Origin: Prauserella muralis
Lineage (GTDB): Bacteria; Actinomycetota; Actinomycetes; Mycobacteriales; Pseudonocardiaceae
NCBI RefSeq assembly: GCF_003202285.1
Contig: NZ_MASW01000002.1
Coordinates: 1 to 64,000, forward strand
DNA length: 64,000 nucleotides
Direction of reading: 5' to 3'
In this document: piece by piece, positions 6,870 through 14,683 of the stretch
Layout of the letters: the number at the start of each line of letters is the position of its first letter
Numbering within the stretch: position 1 is the stretch's first letter
The notes under the pieces: generated by a model
Told to the model about the DNA's origin: nothing
Seen by the model: only the letters and a program-made list of their open reading frames with translations
Database searches by the model: none
Position numbers and translations under genes: made by a program

Positions 6870-6981
6870 CCCCGGACCGCACAGGCGGGTGATCAGGGCG
6901 ACGAGACGAACCCAACCATTCCGGCGCCAGCGTTGTTCCTGCCGACCCTGTCGTGGACCATGCAATGGAGGCGACCAAGCC

Positions 6982-7909
6982 ATGACCAAGCCCACAGTAG
7001 CCCGGGCGGGACCGGCCCCGGTGCCGCGGGCGTGGCGCTCGATCGGTGGCGTGGCCGGCTTCATCGTGGCTCTCAACGCACTCGGCTGGGGGATGCTGAC
7101 TTTCGTTGTCGCACCGCAGCACCATGCCCTGAACGGCTCAACCGTGTTCGGTTTCGGGCTCGGTGTCACCGCGTTTGCACTCGGCGCCCGCCACGCCTTC
7201 GACGCGGACCACATCGCCGCCATCGACAACACCACCCGCACCCTCCTGTCCCAGGGACAACGTCCGCTGTCAGTGGGTTTCTGGTTCTCGCTCGGCCACT
7301 CCACCATCGTGTTCGCGCTTTCGACAGCGCTGGCTATAGGGGTGCGAGGGCTGAGCGGCGCAGTCGGCGACGAGACATCCACCCTGCATCACACGACCAG
7401 CGTCCTCGGCTCGGCGGTGTCCGGTGTCTTCCTCTACGCCATCGCCATCACGAACCTTGTCACGCTGGTCGGGATACTCAGGGTGTACCGACGGATGTGC
7501 CACCAGGCGGCCGGAGCAGCGGATCTCGATCAACAACTCGACCACCGCCGGTTCCTCAATCGCCTCATCAAAGGCACCACCAAGACAGTTCGCAAACCGT
7601 GGCACATCTATCCAGCAGGCCTGCTCTTCGGCCTCGGATTCGACACCGCCACCGAGATCGGTCTGCTCGTGCTCGCCGGCGGGGCCGCCCTATCCCTACC
7701 GTGGTACGCCATCCTCGTACTACCGGCCGCTCTTCACAGCAGGTATGACCACGTTCGACACAGCCGAGGGTGTTCTCATGAACGTCGCCTACGAGTGGGC
7801 GCTCATCAAACCATTTCGCCGGGTGTTCTACAACATCATGATCACGGCGCTGTCCGTCGGCGGCGCGTTTCTCATTGGCACGGTGCAACTGGCGTCACTG
7901 CTCGCCTAA
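6982..7909 (+). pseudogene. NiCoT-family nickel/cobalt permease, frameshifted
   Basis: ATG 6982 opens a frame with the NiCoT signature RHAFDADHIAAIDN (HX4DH) near residue 70 and several membrane helices. Near 7729 an extra base after CTACCGGCC throws the frame off. The correct C-terminus (LFTAGMTTFDTAEGVLMNVAY and onward to VQLASLLA) continues one frame over to a TGA at 7909. Without that base the protein would be about 308 residues, a plausible full length. It may be a true +1 mutation or a sequencing error. An 11-bp hairpin and a DUF2892 gene follow. Confidence 0.82.
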
Positions 7910-7920
7910 ACCTGAAGGCG

Positions 7921-7945
7921 GAGATCGCACACGATGTGCGATCTC
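7921..7945 (+). terminator. Perfect 11-bp hairpin (terminator or operator)
   Basis: GAGATCGCACA, a 3-base loop, then the exact complement. It lies 11 bases after the permease stop and 22 bases before the next start. The position fits a terminator, but the perfect symmetry would also fit a repressor site or an RNA element covering the next gene's leader. Confidence 0.6.
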
Positions 7946-7966
7946 GATACGACGAAGGAGACTAGA

Positions 7967-9710: not shown

Positions 9711-10574
9711 TCACTGGACGCCGCTGTCGTCGGGCTGCCTGGGCTGCTTGTGGCGCTGGTGCCGGGCGCGGGCGAGGCGCACGACGAGCACCGTCAGGGC
9801 CCCGGCGACGAGCGCCAGGATTACCGCTGCGTTGGAGACGTTCGAGGTGAGGTCCTGCAGCCAGGCCTGCAGCGTGAACTGGGTATCGACGCTAGTGAGT
9901 CCGCCGAGGTTTGCTGTGCCTTCGGTGAACAGGAAGAGCGCACCAATGGCGATGAACAACAGTCCGGAGATCAGGCTGGTGGTGTGGGTGCGCAGCGGCC
10001 CCATGGTGATGTCGCGGCCTCGCAACCAGGTTTTGCGCCCCAGGTTGAGGCGATCCCACAACAGTGCCAGCACGAACAGCGGAGCGGCCATGCCCAGCGC
10101 GTAGAGGGCCATCAGCACGCCACCGTAGGCTGGGTCGCCGCCTGCTGCCGATACGGTGAGAACGCTGCCCAGGAGTGGCCCCGAGCAGAACCCAGCGAGA
10201 GCGTAGACGGTGCCCAGCGCGAAGACCGACGCCCCCGAAGCGATCTTGATTCTCGCGGCGGCGCGTTGAGCTGTGCTGATGCCGAAGCCCCTGCCCACGA
10301 TCATAGCGATGCCGAACAGGATCAAGACGACACCGCCAACCGTGGTGGTGACACCGCGGTACTGCGTCAGCACGGCTCCGACCACGGCTACTCCCGCACC
10401 CAGCGGCACGAGCACGATCAGCAGCCCCGCGTAGAAGGCTGCGGTGCGGCGCGCGAGCGCACCGACGCGGTCGAAAGCGTAGGCGAAGAACGACGGCAGC
10501 AACAGCGCCGAGCACGGGCTGACCAGCGTTAACAGCCCGCCAAGGAAGGCGCCCAGTAATCCGATCTCGATCAT
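9711..10574 (-). CDS. ccdA: CcdA-family thiol-disulfide transmembrane protein
   Basis: An integral membrane protein of about 287 residues that carries reducing equivalents from cytoplasmic thioredoxin to outside thiol proteins. The two conserved cysteine helices are visible: LVSPCSALLLPSFF near residue 20 and AGFCSGPLLG near residue 130, within six or more helices. The ATG overlaps the stop of the upstream DsbA-like gene (ATGA), so they form an operon. The cysteine motifs are SPCS and FCSG rather than the commoner SPCVLP. The operon promoter region carries a BlaI-type palindrome. Confidence 0.88.
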   Translation of the reverse strand: MIEIGLLGAFLGGLLTLVSPCSALLLPSFFAYAFDRVGALARRTAAFYAGLLIVLVPLGAGVAVVGAVLTQYRGVTTTVGGVVLILFGIAMIVGRGFGISTAQRAAARIKIASGASVFALGTVYALAGFCSGPLLGSVLTVSAAGGDPAYGGVLMALYALGMAAPLFVLALLWDRLNLGRKTWLRGRDITMGPLRTHTTSLISGLLFIAIGALFLFTEGTANLGGLTSVDTQFTLQAWLQDLTSNVSNAAVILALVAGALTVLVVRLARARHQRHKQPRQPDDSGVQ

Positions 10575-11302
10575 GACTGCGCCGCCGCGCGGTCGATCGC
10601 GCTGACAAAGGTCTCCAGTGGTTGAGCACCCAGGATGGGCTCTCCGTTGATCACAAACGTCGGGGTGCTGGACACGCCAATCGAGGCGCCTTCGGTGAGA
10701 TCGTTCCGGATCGCCTCGTCGAAGCGCTGGTCGTCCATCGCGGCGGTGAACTTCGCCATATCCGGCATCCCCACCTCGCGGGCATAGCCACGCAGCTTCT
10801 CCTGCGTGAGGTCGGGGTGGCCGGTCGGTGGCGAGTCCCCGAAAACGGCGCGGTTGAACTCCCAGAACCTGCCCTGCTCGGCCGCTGCGCGGCCGGCCCT
10901 GGCTGCCTCCATCGACTGCGTGCCGAAGATCGGCAGATCCCGCCACTCGATGCGCAGGACACCGTCCCGGACATAACGTTCCACCAGGATCGGCTCGGTG
11001 TCGCGGCTGAACTTGGCGCAGAACGGGCAGCGGTAGTCGGAGTACATGACCATGGTCACCGGAGCGTCGACGTCGCCGATTGCTAGCGGGTCGCCCTGCT
11101 CCCGGCGGGCGAGGTTTGCCAATGGGTTCTCGCCCTGGGCAGCGGCTTGTTCTTGCGACGGGGGCTGCCCGGGTGGGGCCGCGGCGTCCTGCCCGGGGGG
11201 CTTGGCGAGCAGGTACGTGATCAGGCCTGCGGCGACGAGGACCAGCACGACGACCAGCACGGCATCGCGCTTCCACGTGTCCCGCCCCGAGGTTTTCGAC
11301 AT
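10571..11302 (-). CDS. Membrane-anchored DsbA-like thioredoxin-fold protein
   Basis: A 243-residue protein starting at ATG 11302 (GGAGTG upstream). An N-terminal anchor (VLVVVLVLVAAGLITYLLA, about residues 15-33) leads to a Pro/Gln-rich linker and a DsbA/DSBA-like thioredoxin domain. Its active site CPFC is in YSDYRCPFCAKF near residue 91, and the cis-Pro loop is in GVSSTPTFVINGEP near 214. It would act outside the membrane on disulfides. It is co-translated with ccdA, its likely electron partner. A longer in-frame ORF upstream is an artefact with no ribosome site. Confidence 0.88.
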   Translation of the reverse strand: MSKTSGRDTWKRDAVLVVVLVLVAAGLITYLLAKPPGQDAAAPPGQPPSQEQAAAQGENPLANLARREQGDPLAIGDVDAPVTMVMYSDYRCPFCAKFSRDTEPILVERYVRDGVLRIEWRDLPIFGTQSMEAARAGRAAAEQGRFWEFNRAVFGDSPPTGHPDLTQEKLRGYAREVGMPDMAKFTAAMDDQRFDEAIRNDLTEGASIGVSSTPTFVINGEPILGAQPLETFVSAIDRAAAQS

Positions 11303-11330
11303 CGACACTCCAATCCATCCCGGACCCCAA

Positions 11331-11349
11331 CTACTATGAATGATAGTAG
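11331..11349. promoter_or_regulatory. BlaI-type operator O1
   Basis: CTACTAT-N5-ATAGTAG, a 19-bp dyad. It is identical in both arms and spacing to the site at 14661-14679. It lies between the divergent dsbA-ccdA operon and the gene at 11381, so one repressor could control both sides. Confidence 0.7.
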
Positions 11350-11380
11350 CGATGTGTTCGAGAGGAACTGGAAGTGCCCC

Positions 11381-11863
11381 ATGGCGATCACGACGAGTTC
11401 GACAGACCGGTCCACCCCACGAACCCGCGGCAGGCTGCTGCGCGCCACTGTCATGAGCGGTCTCGCCCTGCTGGTAGTCGGGGTGCCCACCGACATCGTC
11501 GACACGCCGCTGTTCTCCCGGGGAATCCCGGTCCGCTGGTGGGAGTACCCGGTGCTGGTGGCCACCGTCGCGCTCACCGGGGCGTGGTTCGCCATCCAGG
11601 GGCCGACATCCTCCGACCGCGCTCGGCGCACCCCGCTCGGCGGGGTGTTGCTGTCGGTGTTCGCGGTGGGGTGCCCGGTGTGCAACAAGCTGGTGCTCAT
11701 CGCGCTCGGTACATCCGGCGCGTTGAGTATCTGGCAGCCGGTCCAACCGTTCCTGGCGCTGATCTCGCTGGGCCTGCTCGGTTTCGCCGTTACCCAACGC
11801 TGGCGGCGTCGCCACTGCGCGGATAACACGTGTCCCGCGCCAGGATCCACGACATCAGCCTGA
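11381..11863 (+). CDS. Small membrane protein with a CPVC motif
   Basis: A 160-residue protein with about four hydrophobic segments. CPVC sits at the start of the third (SVFAVGCPVCNKLVLIALG, about residues 95-113). I know no named family for it. Its position, divergent from dsbA-ccdA and sharing operator O1, suggests a membrane redox partner; this is inference. An in-frame ATG at 11336 lies inside the operator, so ATG 11381 is preferred. The C-terminus also has two cysteines (HCADNTC). Confidence 0.65.
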   Translation: MAITTSSTDRSTPRTRGRLLRATVMSGLALLVVGVPTDIVDTPLFSRGIPVRWWEYPVLVATVALTGAWFAIQGPTSSDRARRTPLGGVLLSVFAVGCPVCNKLVLIALGTSGALSIWQPVQPFLALISLGLLGFAVTQRWRRRHCADNTCPAPGSTTSA

Positions 11864-11975
11864 CGAAGACAGGCTGTGTTCCGCGGTCCCGCCGGGGTGT
11901 CACTCTCTGCGTCGGCATACCGCGCGCTTTGGGTCGGTGTCTTCTCCGCGGTTCGCCGGTTCGGGTGGCTGCTGG

Positions 11976-12941
11976 TTATCCCGTGACGCCGAGGCAGTAG
12001 AGCGCCACCAGTGTGGCGACCACGGCGAGGGAGGCCACTGTCGGTATGGCGGTCAGCGCGGCTCCCGCGACGTAGTCAAGCTGTACGGGGAGCCTCCGCA
12101 GCCCTGCCCGCTCCGTGGACAGCCACAGCAGTCGCGCCTCGACGGACTCGCGGGACATCTCCAGCGCGCCGCTGTGGGGACCGAGCGGCGTCGGCGCTGG
12201 GGTGCCACCCTGGCTCATGGCCAGTAACGCCGAACGTAGCGGTTCAGATCCATGGCTTCGTGCGGCCGAGGCGTCGGCAGCCAGTTCGGACAGGATCCGG
12301 ATGGCTCCTGGCGCCCGCCGAGCGAGCGGAACGAATGGCAACGCGGCCGAGAGGATGTCGGCGGCCAGTATCAGCAGGTGGTGTCTGCCACGCAGGTGGG
12401 CTCGTTCGTGCGCGAGCACCGCCGCGCACCGAAGGGCTCCCAGCCGTCGCACGCCAGTGGTGGCCACGATGGCGCCGCGGCGCCGCCCAGCCACGCTGTA
12501 GGCCACCGGTTTCGCCTCCTCAATCCAGAGGACGGACCGCTCGCCCTGGCACACGGACCGCAGCAACGTGAGGTGTGCACGCCGCCAGCACCGGTGCTGC
12601 CGCACCCGGCGGACGGCAATGACGGCCGACCGGGCGGCCAGCCCGATAATGACACCGGTGAGACCGAGCCGCACGATGTGCTCGGCCACGATCTCGCCGC
12701 CACGGATGATGTTCACGCAACTGTTGGCCATGCCGATCAGCCCGTCGACGTCCACCGAGCGAGGCAGCACCAGCAACACAGCCGCCCCGAGTGCAGCAAC
12801 CAGCATCATCGCGGTTGAGCTGACCCAGCCGGCGAGCGCGAGCCCCGGACGTAGGCTCGGCGTCGCGGCGGTACGCAGGTAGCTCGGCGCGGCCACGCCC
12901 ATCACGACAGCCGCCGCCAGCAGGCCCAGTGCGATCGTCAC
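11976..12941 (-). CDS. M56-family (BlaR1/MecR1-like) membrane metallopeptidase
   Basis: A 321-residue membrane protein with helices near residues 1-20, 35-60 and 85-105 and a zinc peptidase motif AVLAHERAHLRGRHH (HEXXH) near residue 192. A downstream SELAADASA could supply the third ligand, and a C-terminal helix is present. It lacks the penicillin-binding sensor domain of true BlaR1, as do most actinobacterial M56 proteins. It overlaps the BlaI gene by 4 bases and presumably triggers loss of that repressor. The signal sensed is unknown; the neighbours suggest envelope thiol or redox stress. Confidence 0.85.
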   Translation of the reverse strand: MTIALGLLAAAVVMGVAAPSYLRTAATPSLRPGLALAGWVSSTAMMLVAALGAAVLLVLPRSVDVDGLIGMANSCVNIIRGGEIVAEHIVRLGLTGVIIGLAARSAVIAVRRVRQHRCWRRAHLTLLRSVCQGERSVLWIEEAKPVAYSVAGRRRGAIVATTGVRRLGALRCAAVLAHERAHLRGRHHLLILAADILSAALPFVPLARRAPGAIRILSELAADASAARSHGSEPLRSALLAMSQGGTPAPTPLGPHSGALEMSRESVEARLLWLSTERAGLRRLPVQLDYVAGAALTAIPTVASLAVVATLVALYCLGVTG

Positions 12942-13297
12942 CGCTGCCCCTTCGATCGCAGTGCGCGCCGCAGAATGTCCGACTCCTCGGGGGTCATCGA
13001 TCGGGCAAAGTGCAGTAGGATGCGTTCGGAGTCGCCGCTGGTCTGCAGCACTTCCCGCAGCAGCTTCGCGCCGACCTCTTCGCGCGACTCGGCTGCCGTG
13101 TACTCGTAGGCGCGTCCTGCCCGAGCGCGCCGGGCGTAGCCCTTCCCGTGCAGCTTGTCCAGCACGGTCATCACGGTCGTGTAGGCGAGTGGCCGTGTGG
13201 TGTCGAGCCGTTCCAGCACGTCACGCACACGTAACGGGCGTGTCGCGGACCACAGCACGTCCATGACCCTGGCTTCCAGTTCCCCAAGACCTCGCAT
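12938..13297 (-). CDS. BlaI/MecI/CopY-family repressor
   Basis: A 119-residue winged-helix repressor. It opens with MRGLGELEARVMDVLW, the usual start of the family, and carries the recognition region YTTVMTVLDKLHGKGYARR near residue 40, then a dimerisation tail. It lies 39 bases after the lipoprotein gene and overlaps the M56 gene, so the three form one operon led by operator O2. It is the natural candidate to bind CTACTAT-N5-ATAGTAG and so to repress itself and the ccdA locus. Confidence 0.92.
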   Translation of the reverse strand: MRGLGELEARVMDVLWSATRPLRVRDVLERLDTTRPLAYTTVMTVLDKLHGKGYARRARAGRAYEYTAAESREEVGAKLLREVLQTSGDSERILLHFARSMTPEESDILRRALRSKGQR

Positions 13298-13336
13298 CCG
13301 ACCACCCTTTCGCCAACGTCGGCCTGTCGGTTCGAT

Positions 13337-14641
13337 TCACCGTGTCCGGTAGGCGACGAAGCCCGGACCTGCCCCAGCGAGACGGTCGTTCGGTTCGGCA
13401 GCCGGATCACGCGGCAGGGCGGTGAGGAGGGTGCCCTTGTTGGCTGCGACGGGGGCAGGCCAGTCGCCTTGCTCGAGGATCCGGCCGGTGGCCAACTGGA
13501 CTGCGACCGACTGTCCAGCCCGCGTACCGAAGCCCACTCCGCCGTCCGCGACCGTGATGTCCACCAGCCCAGCCCCGCCACCATTGATGGTCCAGTCCAG
13601 CTGTCCGGAGTCAAGGTCGTAGGCGCGTGTCTCGGTAAAGCCGTTGAGGCCAGCCACGATCGCCGCCTTACCCTGGTCGGCCACGACGGTCCGAACGTCG
13701 GTCTCGTTCCCGAGTGCTACCAGCAGGTTGCCGGTGCGCAGATCGTGCAGAGCGGTTCGCGGTGCGCTTGCCGCGCCGTCGCCGTCACTCCCGGACCAGC
13801 GCAGGGCCACCACCCCCGCCTTGGAGGCCTGCGTGCTGCTCAGCAGCTCGACAGAACGAGCCCGGCTCGGCCACTGCGGCGGCAGGTGGAGCTCGGTCGA
13901 GGTCCACAGCACCTCTCCCGTGCTGGTGTCGACGGCCGTGAGGGTGCCGTCCTTGCCGAAGAGCCCGAGGCCGTCGTGCTCGTAGAGCGGCACCGCATCC
14001 CTCGTGGGTGGCTCGACCGGTTCCCCTGTGTCGGTGTTGAGCATGACCCGCGGCCCGGTTTCACCACCCACCACCGAGGCGGTGACCTTTCCGAAAATCA
14101 GGCCTGGCCCCTGCAGCGGTCCGGGAACGCGCACCGGGCCCCACACTCGGTGTCCGTCCTGGGCGTCATACGCATTCGCGGTGGTCTCGGTGGCGACCTT
14201 GTCACCGCGGTTGTCGGCGTTGCTGGCCAGCACGACCGCGGCGGGTCGGTCGTTGACGCGGGTCACGCCATAACCGACGCAGGACGGATTCGTCCACACC
14301 CGCCACCGGGTCGCGCCGGAGAGATCGACACCCACAATGGACAGATCCGACTGAGTGTCGACGGGAAATACCACGCCAACCAGCGTGTCTCCCGCGGCGA
14401 GGGGCACGTCGTCGAACGGCGCCTTCCAGGCCGGCTGGGGACCCGATAGTGCGGGCGCCCGCCACTGCGCGACCTCGGGCGGTGGCACCGGTGGCTTGGT
14501 CGCGGTCACCAGTTCCGGCAGGGGCAGTGCGGCGCCAGTCGTTTCAGCGCTGCTGTTGCTGCCGTCGCTACTGCACGCCGACAGGGCAACCGCAGCCGCC
14601 ACGATGGTCACGGCCAGCCGTCTGGACGCGCGGTGCTGCAT
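13337..14641 (-). CDS. PQQ-like beta-propeller lipoprotein
   Basis: A 434-residue secreted protein starting at ATG 14641 with GGAGG five bases upstream. The lipoprotein signal ends in LSAC (Cys near residue 22). Repeated blades are recognisable: GVDLSGATRWRVW, AYDAQDGHRVWGPV, AVDTSTGEVLW and AYDLDSGQLDW resemble PQQ-propeller W motifs. No PQQ-enzyme catalytic residues are evident, so a binding or scaffold role is likelier than dehydrogenase activity. It is the first gene of the blaI-M56 operon, directly under operator O2. Confidence 0.8.
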   Translation of the reverse strand: MQHRASRRLAVTIVAAAVALSACSSDGSNSSAETTGAALPLPELVTATKPPVPPPEVAQWRAPALSGPQPAWKAPFDDVPLAAGDTLVGVVFPVDTQSDLSIVGVDLSGATRWRVWTNPSCVGYGVTRVNDRPAAVVLASNADNRGDKVATETTANAYDAQDGHRVWGPVRVPGPLQGPGLIFGKVTASVVGGETGPRVMLNTDTGEPVEPPTRDAVPLYEHDGLGLFGKDGTLTAVDTSTGEVLWTSTELHLPPQWPSRARSVELLSSTQASKAGVVALRWSGSDGDGAASAPRTALHDLRTGNLLVALGNETDVRTVVADQGKAAIVAGLNGFTETRAYDLDSGQLDWTINGGGAGLVDITVADGGVGFGTRAGQSVAVQLATGRILEQGDWPAPVAANKGTLLTALPRDPAAEPNDRLAGAGPGFVAYRTR

Positions 14642-14656
14642 CGATCCTCCGATCCC

Positions 14657-14683
14657 ATCACTACTATATGTCATAGTAGTGAT
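14657..14683. promoter_or_regulatory. BlaI-type operator O2
   Basis: Core CTACTAT-N5-ATAGTAG at 14661-14679, extended to 11-bp perfect arms (ATCACTACTAT and its complement). It lies 16 bases upstream of the lipoprotein start, in a position to block transcription of lipoprotein-blaI-M56. Confidence 0.75.

Follow-up and report, generated by a model that had tools for sequence, protein, structure and literature searches.

A sensor-less BlaI/M56 regulon of thiol-disulfide genes in Prauserella muralis and its actinobacterial relatives

What does a BlaI/BlaR1-type switch respond to when its protease has no penicillin sensor and its operators stand before thiol-disulfide genes? The question is raised by a module at positions 9,711 to 14,683 of a 64,000-nucleotide stretch of Prauserella muralis DNA (contig NZ_MASW01000002.1; "the window" denotes the whole stretch), in which genes for a BlaI-type repressor and an M56-family membrane protease lie between two copies of one palindrome. 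A conserved BlaI/M56 regulon is real, and the window's module is its simplest form. We think it probable that a BlaI/BlaR1-type switch without a penicillin sensor, gated by thiol state or thiophilic metals through residues C75 and C316 of the protease, controls thiol genes and a wider gene set.

Two exact operators around a disulfide gene module

The module consists of the following features.

11331..11349, no strand: operator 1, CTACTAT-GAATG-ATAGTAG, exact, between the divergent dsbA and CPVC genes
14661..14679, no strand: operator 2, CTACTAT-ATGTC-ATAGTAG, exact, 19 bp upstream of the lipoprotein gene
9711..10574, minus strand: ccdA-like membrane thiol:disulfide transporter (PF02683 DsbD_TM, E 9e-13, over cut-off)
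10571..11302, minus strand: dsbA-like extracytoplasmic thioredoxin-fold protein with a CPFC active site (PF13462 Thioredoxin_4, E 1e-30; PF01323 DSBA, E 1e-19; both over cut-off)
11381..11863, alternative start 11336, plus strand: membrane protein with a CPVC motif and a weak resemblance to MerT (PF02411, E 1.6e-4, below cut-off)
11976..12941, minus strand: M56 (BlaR1-fold) protease without a sensor domain (HExxH at residues 178-182, E219, outer-face C75 and C316)
12938..13297, minus strand: BlaI-type repressor without cysteine, His96-Phe97 at the Staphylococcus aureus BlaI cleavage position (PF03965, E 4e-24)
13337..14641, minus strand: lipoprotein resembling a beta-propeller, whose gene opens the blaI-M56 operon (weak PQQ_2 match, E 3.5e-5, below cut-off)

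An earlier note, made from the sequence alone, had described identical palindromes before lipoprotein-blaI-M56 and between dsbA-ccdA and the CPVC gene; both are indeed present and exact, and the order and identities of the genes are also as described, judged from reading frame coordinates, Pfam and fold. Operator 1 lies 28 bp from the dsbA start (11302) and 31 bp from the CPVC ATG (11381). The exact pattern CTACTAT-N5-ATAGTAG occurs twice in the window, compared with 0.00 expected occurrences from 100 dinucleotide shuffles, and with three mismatches permitted the window still shows just those two sites (0.04 expected). The half-site includes TACTAT, a −10-like hexamer; −35 boxes were sought by eye for promoter assignment, and nothing convincing was found. 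The lipoprotein gene and blaI are separated by 39 bp and blaI and the M56 gene overlap by 4 bases, and therefore the three very likely form one operon. The ccdA and dsbA genes likewise overlap by 4 bases, and their products belong to a DsbA-CcdA thiol pathway, with a CxxC-bearing thioredoxin fold (Pfam, the CPFC motif read in the sequence) and a CcdA/DsbD_TM partner.

The claim that the repressor and the protease are the only ones of their kind in the window holds for both proteins, with a single BlaI and a single M56 protein of the BlaR1-like family. For the repressor, it does not extend to the genome, in which we counted seven BlaI matches and 20 further operator-like sites.

Candidate signal input through the M56 protease

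The M56 protein scored 15.4 bits against Pfam PF05569, below the cut-off of 31. Its predicted model (predicted local distance difference test, pLDDT, 87.7) nonetheless has BlaR1 entries as all five of its best solved matches (Z 9.9-12.1, residues 4-265), and this fold match bears out the BlaR1-like identity first proposed for it. The zinc-protease residues H178, E179, H182 and E219, comprising the HExxH motif and the third ligand, are conserved. Judged by loop charges, the loop between transmembrane helices (TM) 1 and 2 lies inside together with the protease, and the TM2-TM3 loop faces outward, as does the C-terminus; BlaR1 has the same topology. M56 proteins of this kind span the membrane with four helices and lack a sensor domain, and the window's protein stops 5 residues past C316, within the last helix, leaving no C-terminal extracellular penicillin-binding sensor.

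Two cysteines face outward: C75 in the outer loop, conserved in 90 of 98 aligned M56 proteins, and C316 at the outer end of the last helix, conserved in 85 of 98. In a sample from the same order, both were present in 13/13 accessory and 0/17 chromosomal M56 proteins, the latter of which we take, from their C-terminus, to be of the Rv1845c type; in four of these 17, a cysteine is present at another position close to the C-terminus. In BlaR1, signalling has been located at the outer loop and at the sensor domain lying beyond the last helix; how the sensor-less Mycobacterium tuberculosis BlaR homologue detects its signal is stated to be unclear (PMC9834060). A C75-C316 bridge between these two signalling places would be a simple substitute for the sensor, making the pair a two-residue candidate for signal input in this sensor-less branch. 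An extracytoplasmic redox or thiol sensor would fit both the conserved outer-face pair and the neighbouring genes.

The repressor has a clear Penicillinase_R domain (85.7 bits, cut-off 22.6), and its closest solved structure is 2g9w, presumably Rv1846c of M. tuberculosis. Its His96-Phe97 corresponds to the Asn101-Phe102 bond at which S. aureus BlaI is cut (PMC9834060). Phe97 is kept in 97 of 101 BlaI relatives, with His, Arg or another residue at P1, and this conservation of the Phe supports a predicted release by proteolysis.

Could BlaI itself sense copper in the manner of CopY, with M56 serving only as a turnover protease? The best NCBIfam model for BlaI is CopY_TcrY, which is far below threshold, and copper genes occur in the islands described below. 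However, no cysteine is present in the window's BlaI or in 96 of its 101 relatives, and CxC was found in 0/101 (aligned part), so that the C-terminal copper-binding cysteine motif of CopY is absent. In addition, M56 is retained beside BlaI in nearly all loci, a count that comes from loci found through M56. We therefore regard copper sensing by BlaI as very improbable; a repressor without cysteine cannot sense metal as CopY does, and the signal most likely enters through M56.

Recurrence in relatives and a wider regulon

The earlier note had named lack of conservation of the gene set as one of the findings that would refute its regulon, and the set proved to be conserved. In a scan of named genomes for M56 relatives (80 loci kept), 20 of 97 M56 genes lie within 3.5 kb of genes for DsbA and CcdA, and the set blaI-M56-dsbA-ccdA recurs in several genera. 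Ten of the 20, including the window, form one supported clade (97/98) that spans Saccharomonospora, Tamaricihabitans, Saccharopolyspora, Crossiella, Pseudonocardia (also on plasmid pPA12743CP) and Prescottella; the remaining carriers are mycobacterial and Nocardiopsis/Saccharopolyspora, and the dsbA-ccdA label requires five changes on the M56 tree. The full layout of the window, with both operators at the same places, was found in Saccharomonospora piscinae (L034) and Saccharomonospora iraqiensis (L039). A CTACTA/TAGTAG site lies just upstream of dsbA in 11/11 loci of the window's group (a count that includes L039, whose M56 was absent from the tree), as expected if blaI-M56 and dsbA-ccdA share an operator class, and over the 80 loci there are 138 such sites, whereas the reversed pattern, used as control, occurs 4 times. 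In Pseudonocardia the spacer length is 6, and in Crossiella (L057:10906-10932) two operators overlap upstream of dsbA.

Four mycobacterial loci have a palindrome of different sequence upstream of dsbA, perfect in L104-L106 (TACGTAGCTACGGCGTAGCTACGTA) and imperfect in L089. At L104:7504-7528, it comprises two 12-nt arms with 100% complementarity before dsbA-ccdA-blaI-M56, and we consider TACGTAGCTACGGCGTAGCTACGTA a candidate second operator-like sequence for the same gene set.

We further compared 87 cysteine-pair loci, a few of which have an M56 protein without one of the two cysteines, with 22 cysteine-less (chromosomal-type) loci. Metal, thiol and envelope genes accompany the former and rarely the latter: CcdA in 29/87 versus 0/22 (p 7e-4) and DUF305 in 35 versus 0 (p 7e-5), with p-values that count every locus as independent and draw heavily on related genomes, as well as TlpA (26 versus 0), NlpC/P60 (25 versus 0), heavy-metal ATPase (32 versus 1) and multicopper oxidase (20 versus 0). 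M23 did not differ between the two groups. The family reference library was drawn from plasmid islands and the window and favors their families, and both groups were scored alike. Operators numbered 128 versus 2 (reversed control, 3 versus 0). The chromosomal BlaI type has instead TTCTAC-N5-GTAGAA (10 versus 1 sites; seen at L148, L149, L154, L155, L158, L159 and L161), which is likely the operator of that type.

Relatives of the CPVC protein are present in 18 of the 87 cysteine-pair loci, and the propeller lipoprotein is present in five. The latter count bears on the idea, raised in the earlier note, of a beta-propeller ligand, that is, of the lipoprotein as a ligand-binding sensor subunit that gates M56. 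The lipoprotein is the first gene of the operon in the window and in two Saccharomonospora, and it lies near blaI-M56, without an operator, in Nocardiopsis; as most blaI-M56-dsbA-ccdA loci lack it, it is optional, and such a role is highly unlikely.

Across the 7.47-Mb genome, pattern searches with the reversed pattern as control gave 22 sites versus 6 at up to two mismatches and 10 versus 0 at up to one. Each of the 22 maps to one of three places: the window, the terminal part of contig C3 (1678432-1735120) and the first part of contig C4 (3540-27833). By Pfam, the products of genes beside the sites in this island include a heavy-metal ATPase, DUF302, two cytochrome oxidase subunits I, a thioredoxin, CcdA, a sortase, M23 and two Lgt; one exact site lies upstream of an Lnt-like gene (named by eye from sequence, not by profile), and a Big_10/YkuD L,D-transpeptidase gene has a weaker site with three mismatches. 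Cytochrome c maturation genes and further BlaI genes are located in the same island. The earlier view of a regulon confined to disulfide chemistry was thus too narrow, since copper, cytochrome oxidase, lipoprotein-processing and peptidoglycan genes also have the operator upstream; the window's disulfide module is a small self-contained form of a larger regulon class.

The island itself (C3:1678432-1738757 and C4:1-28000; L005-L010) is a copper, cytochrome c and envelope region that holds most of the genome's operator sites, two lgt genes, the lnt-like gene, a sortase, an L,D-transpeptidase and several BlaI-M56 genes, and its C3 and C4 ends may join. A partial BlaI-like gene without an M56 partner adjoins a ctaD operator (C3:1730325-1730522, L017).

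A comparable form occurs on plasmids. We read eight stretches of annotated plasmid sequence from Pseudonocardia, Rhodococcus, Mycolicibacterium and Gordonia, most of which have blaI-M56 amid copper, TlpA/CcdA/ResB, Lnt, Lgt, L,D-transpeptidase and NlpC/P60 genes. No operator site falls inside any listed gene on these stretches, and the genes downstream of the sites include lgt, lnt, ripA, M23, NlpC/P60, rhodanese, ctaD and dsbA.

The envelope genes raise the alternative of a regulon for beta-lactams or damage to the cell wall, of the kind known from staphylococci and M. tuberculosis, in which M56 would answer wall stress and the targets would repair the wall. The BlaI family itself and island targets such as L,D-transpeptidase, NlpC/P60, M23 and sortase are consistent with this, and the M. 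tuberculosis BlaR likewise has no sensor domain (PMC9834060). However, M56 lacks the sensor, the chromosomal BlaI type has a different operator, and a wall-only signal fits poorly with the copper ATPase, cytochrome oxidase and DsbA-CcdA. There is also no beta-lactamase among the operator targets, in keeping with what had been predicted: the two clear class A genes sit on contigs C6 and C7 with no operator nearby (other beta-lactamase classes were not searched). We therefore judge a wall-stress regulon unlikely.

A more serious alternative, which we hold to be possible but doubtful, is that C75 and C316 form a constitutive structural disulfide and that the true signal is another, such as a client of DsbA/CcdA, heme or cytochrome c maturation. 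The cysteines are conserved whatever the target set, and cytochrome c maturation genes are present in the island. However, presence or absence of the pair marks two functional classes that differ in operator and neighbors. Correlated loss of C75 and C316 (Fisher p 3e-4) was dropped, as it was not significant once corrected for the tree. Several observations weigh against gating through the cysteine pair and a regulon defined by this operator. Joint gain or loss of C75 and C316 amounts, after tree correction, to about three independent events, too few to prove coupling, so that an ordinary structural disulfide is possible; no target gene is clear for some sites, both in the genome and on plasmids, where some lack any gene within 450 bp; and several BlaI paralogues may share sites.

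Under the gating model that we favor, a BlaI dimer would bind the CTACTAT-N5-ATAGTAG sites and repress its own operon (lipoprotein-blaI-M56) and the divergent dsbA-ccdA and CPVC promoters. M56 would be embedded in the membrane, its zinc site on the cytoplasmic side, and oxidation, reduction, or capture by copper or mercury of the C75/C316 pair would turn the protease on; active M56 would then cut BlaI at the conserved Phe97 and release the DsbA-CcdA thiol-repair pair. At other places in the genome, and on plasmids from other genera, the same operator would control the larger copper, cytochrome and cell-envelope set.

More tentatively, with the odds somewhat against it, we suggest a BlaR1-like protease family in which the outer-face cysteine pair replaces the penicillin sensor, responds to extracytoplasmic thiol state or thiophilic metals, and governs mobile regulons that bring in spare copies of cysteine-dependent envelope enzymes (L,D-transpeptidase, NlpC/P60, sortase and Lnt) together with DsbA-CcdA and copper defence. 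The wider target list abounds in these four enzyme types, which use a catalytic cysteine and would be expected to suffer from thiophilic metals; Lgt and M23, which do not use one, are likewise among the targets. In work attributed to Peters (2018; listed among the references of PMC12729407), copper reportedly inhibits L,D-transpeptidases. If the cysteine pair is the signal input, copper and redox stress would be tied to cell-wall and lipoprotein enzymes via one operator that is mobile on actinobacterial plasmids.

Elsewhere in the window, transposase-like fragments by the contig start (676-3331) suggest that the first kilobases are mobile, and a HoxN/NixA-type nickel/cobalt transporter gene (6976-7965) seems frameshifted near 7745, with coding in another frame running on to 7909.

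Comparison with known systems

A literature search, which covered open-licence papers only and is weak evidence of novelty, returned no description of the gene set, of BlaI with copper islands or of BlaI with CcdA/DsbA. The module resembles staphylococcal BlaR1-BlaI and MecR1-MecI in its BlaR1-fold zinc protease beside a winged-helix repressor, its palindromic operator and its Phe at the cleavage position. Unlike BlaR1 and MecR1, its M56 protease carries two outer-face cysteines in place of the penicillin sensor, and the operator targets comprise thiol, copper and envelope genes but no beta-lactamase. The M. tuberculosis pair Rv1846c-Rv1845c (BlaI-BlaR) shares the sensor-less protease (PMC9834060) and supplies the closest solved repressor structure, 2g9w, whereas the chromosomal type differs from that of the window in having no cysteine pair, often TTCTAC-N5-GTAGAA, and almost none of these neighbors. 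CopY belongs to the same repressor family, but the window's BlaI lacks its metal-binding cysteines. In enterobacteria, the DsbA-like ScsC and its partner ScsB serve copper resistance (PMC5524982), and ScsB-ScsC of enterobacteria and Caulobacter parallel the module in joining a DsbA-like protein, a DsbD/CcdA-like partner and a link to copper (PMC5524982, PMC8900818); their architecture differs and BlaI-M56 control is absent, making the analogy a functional one only.

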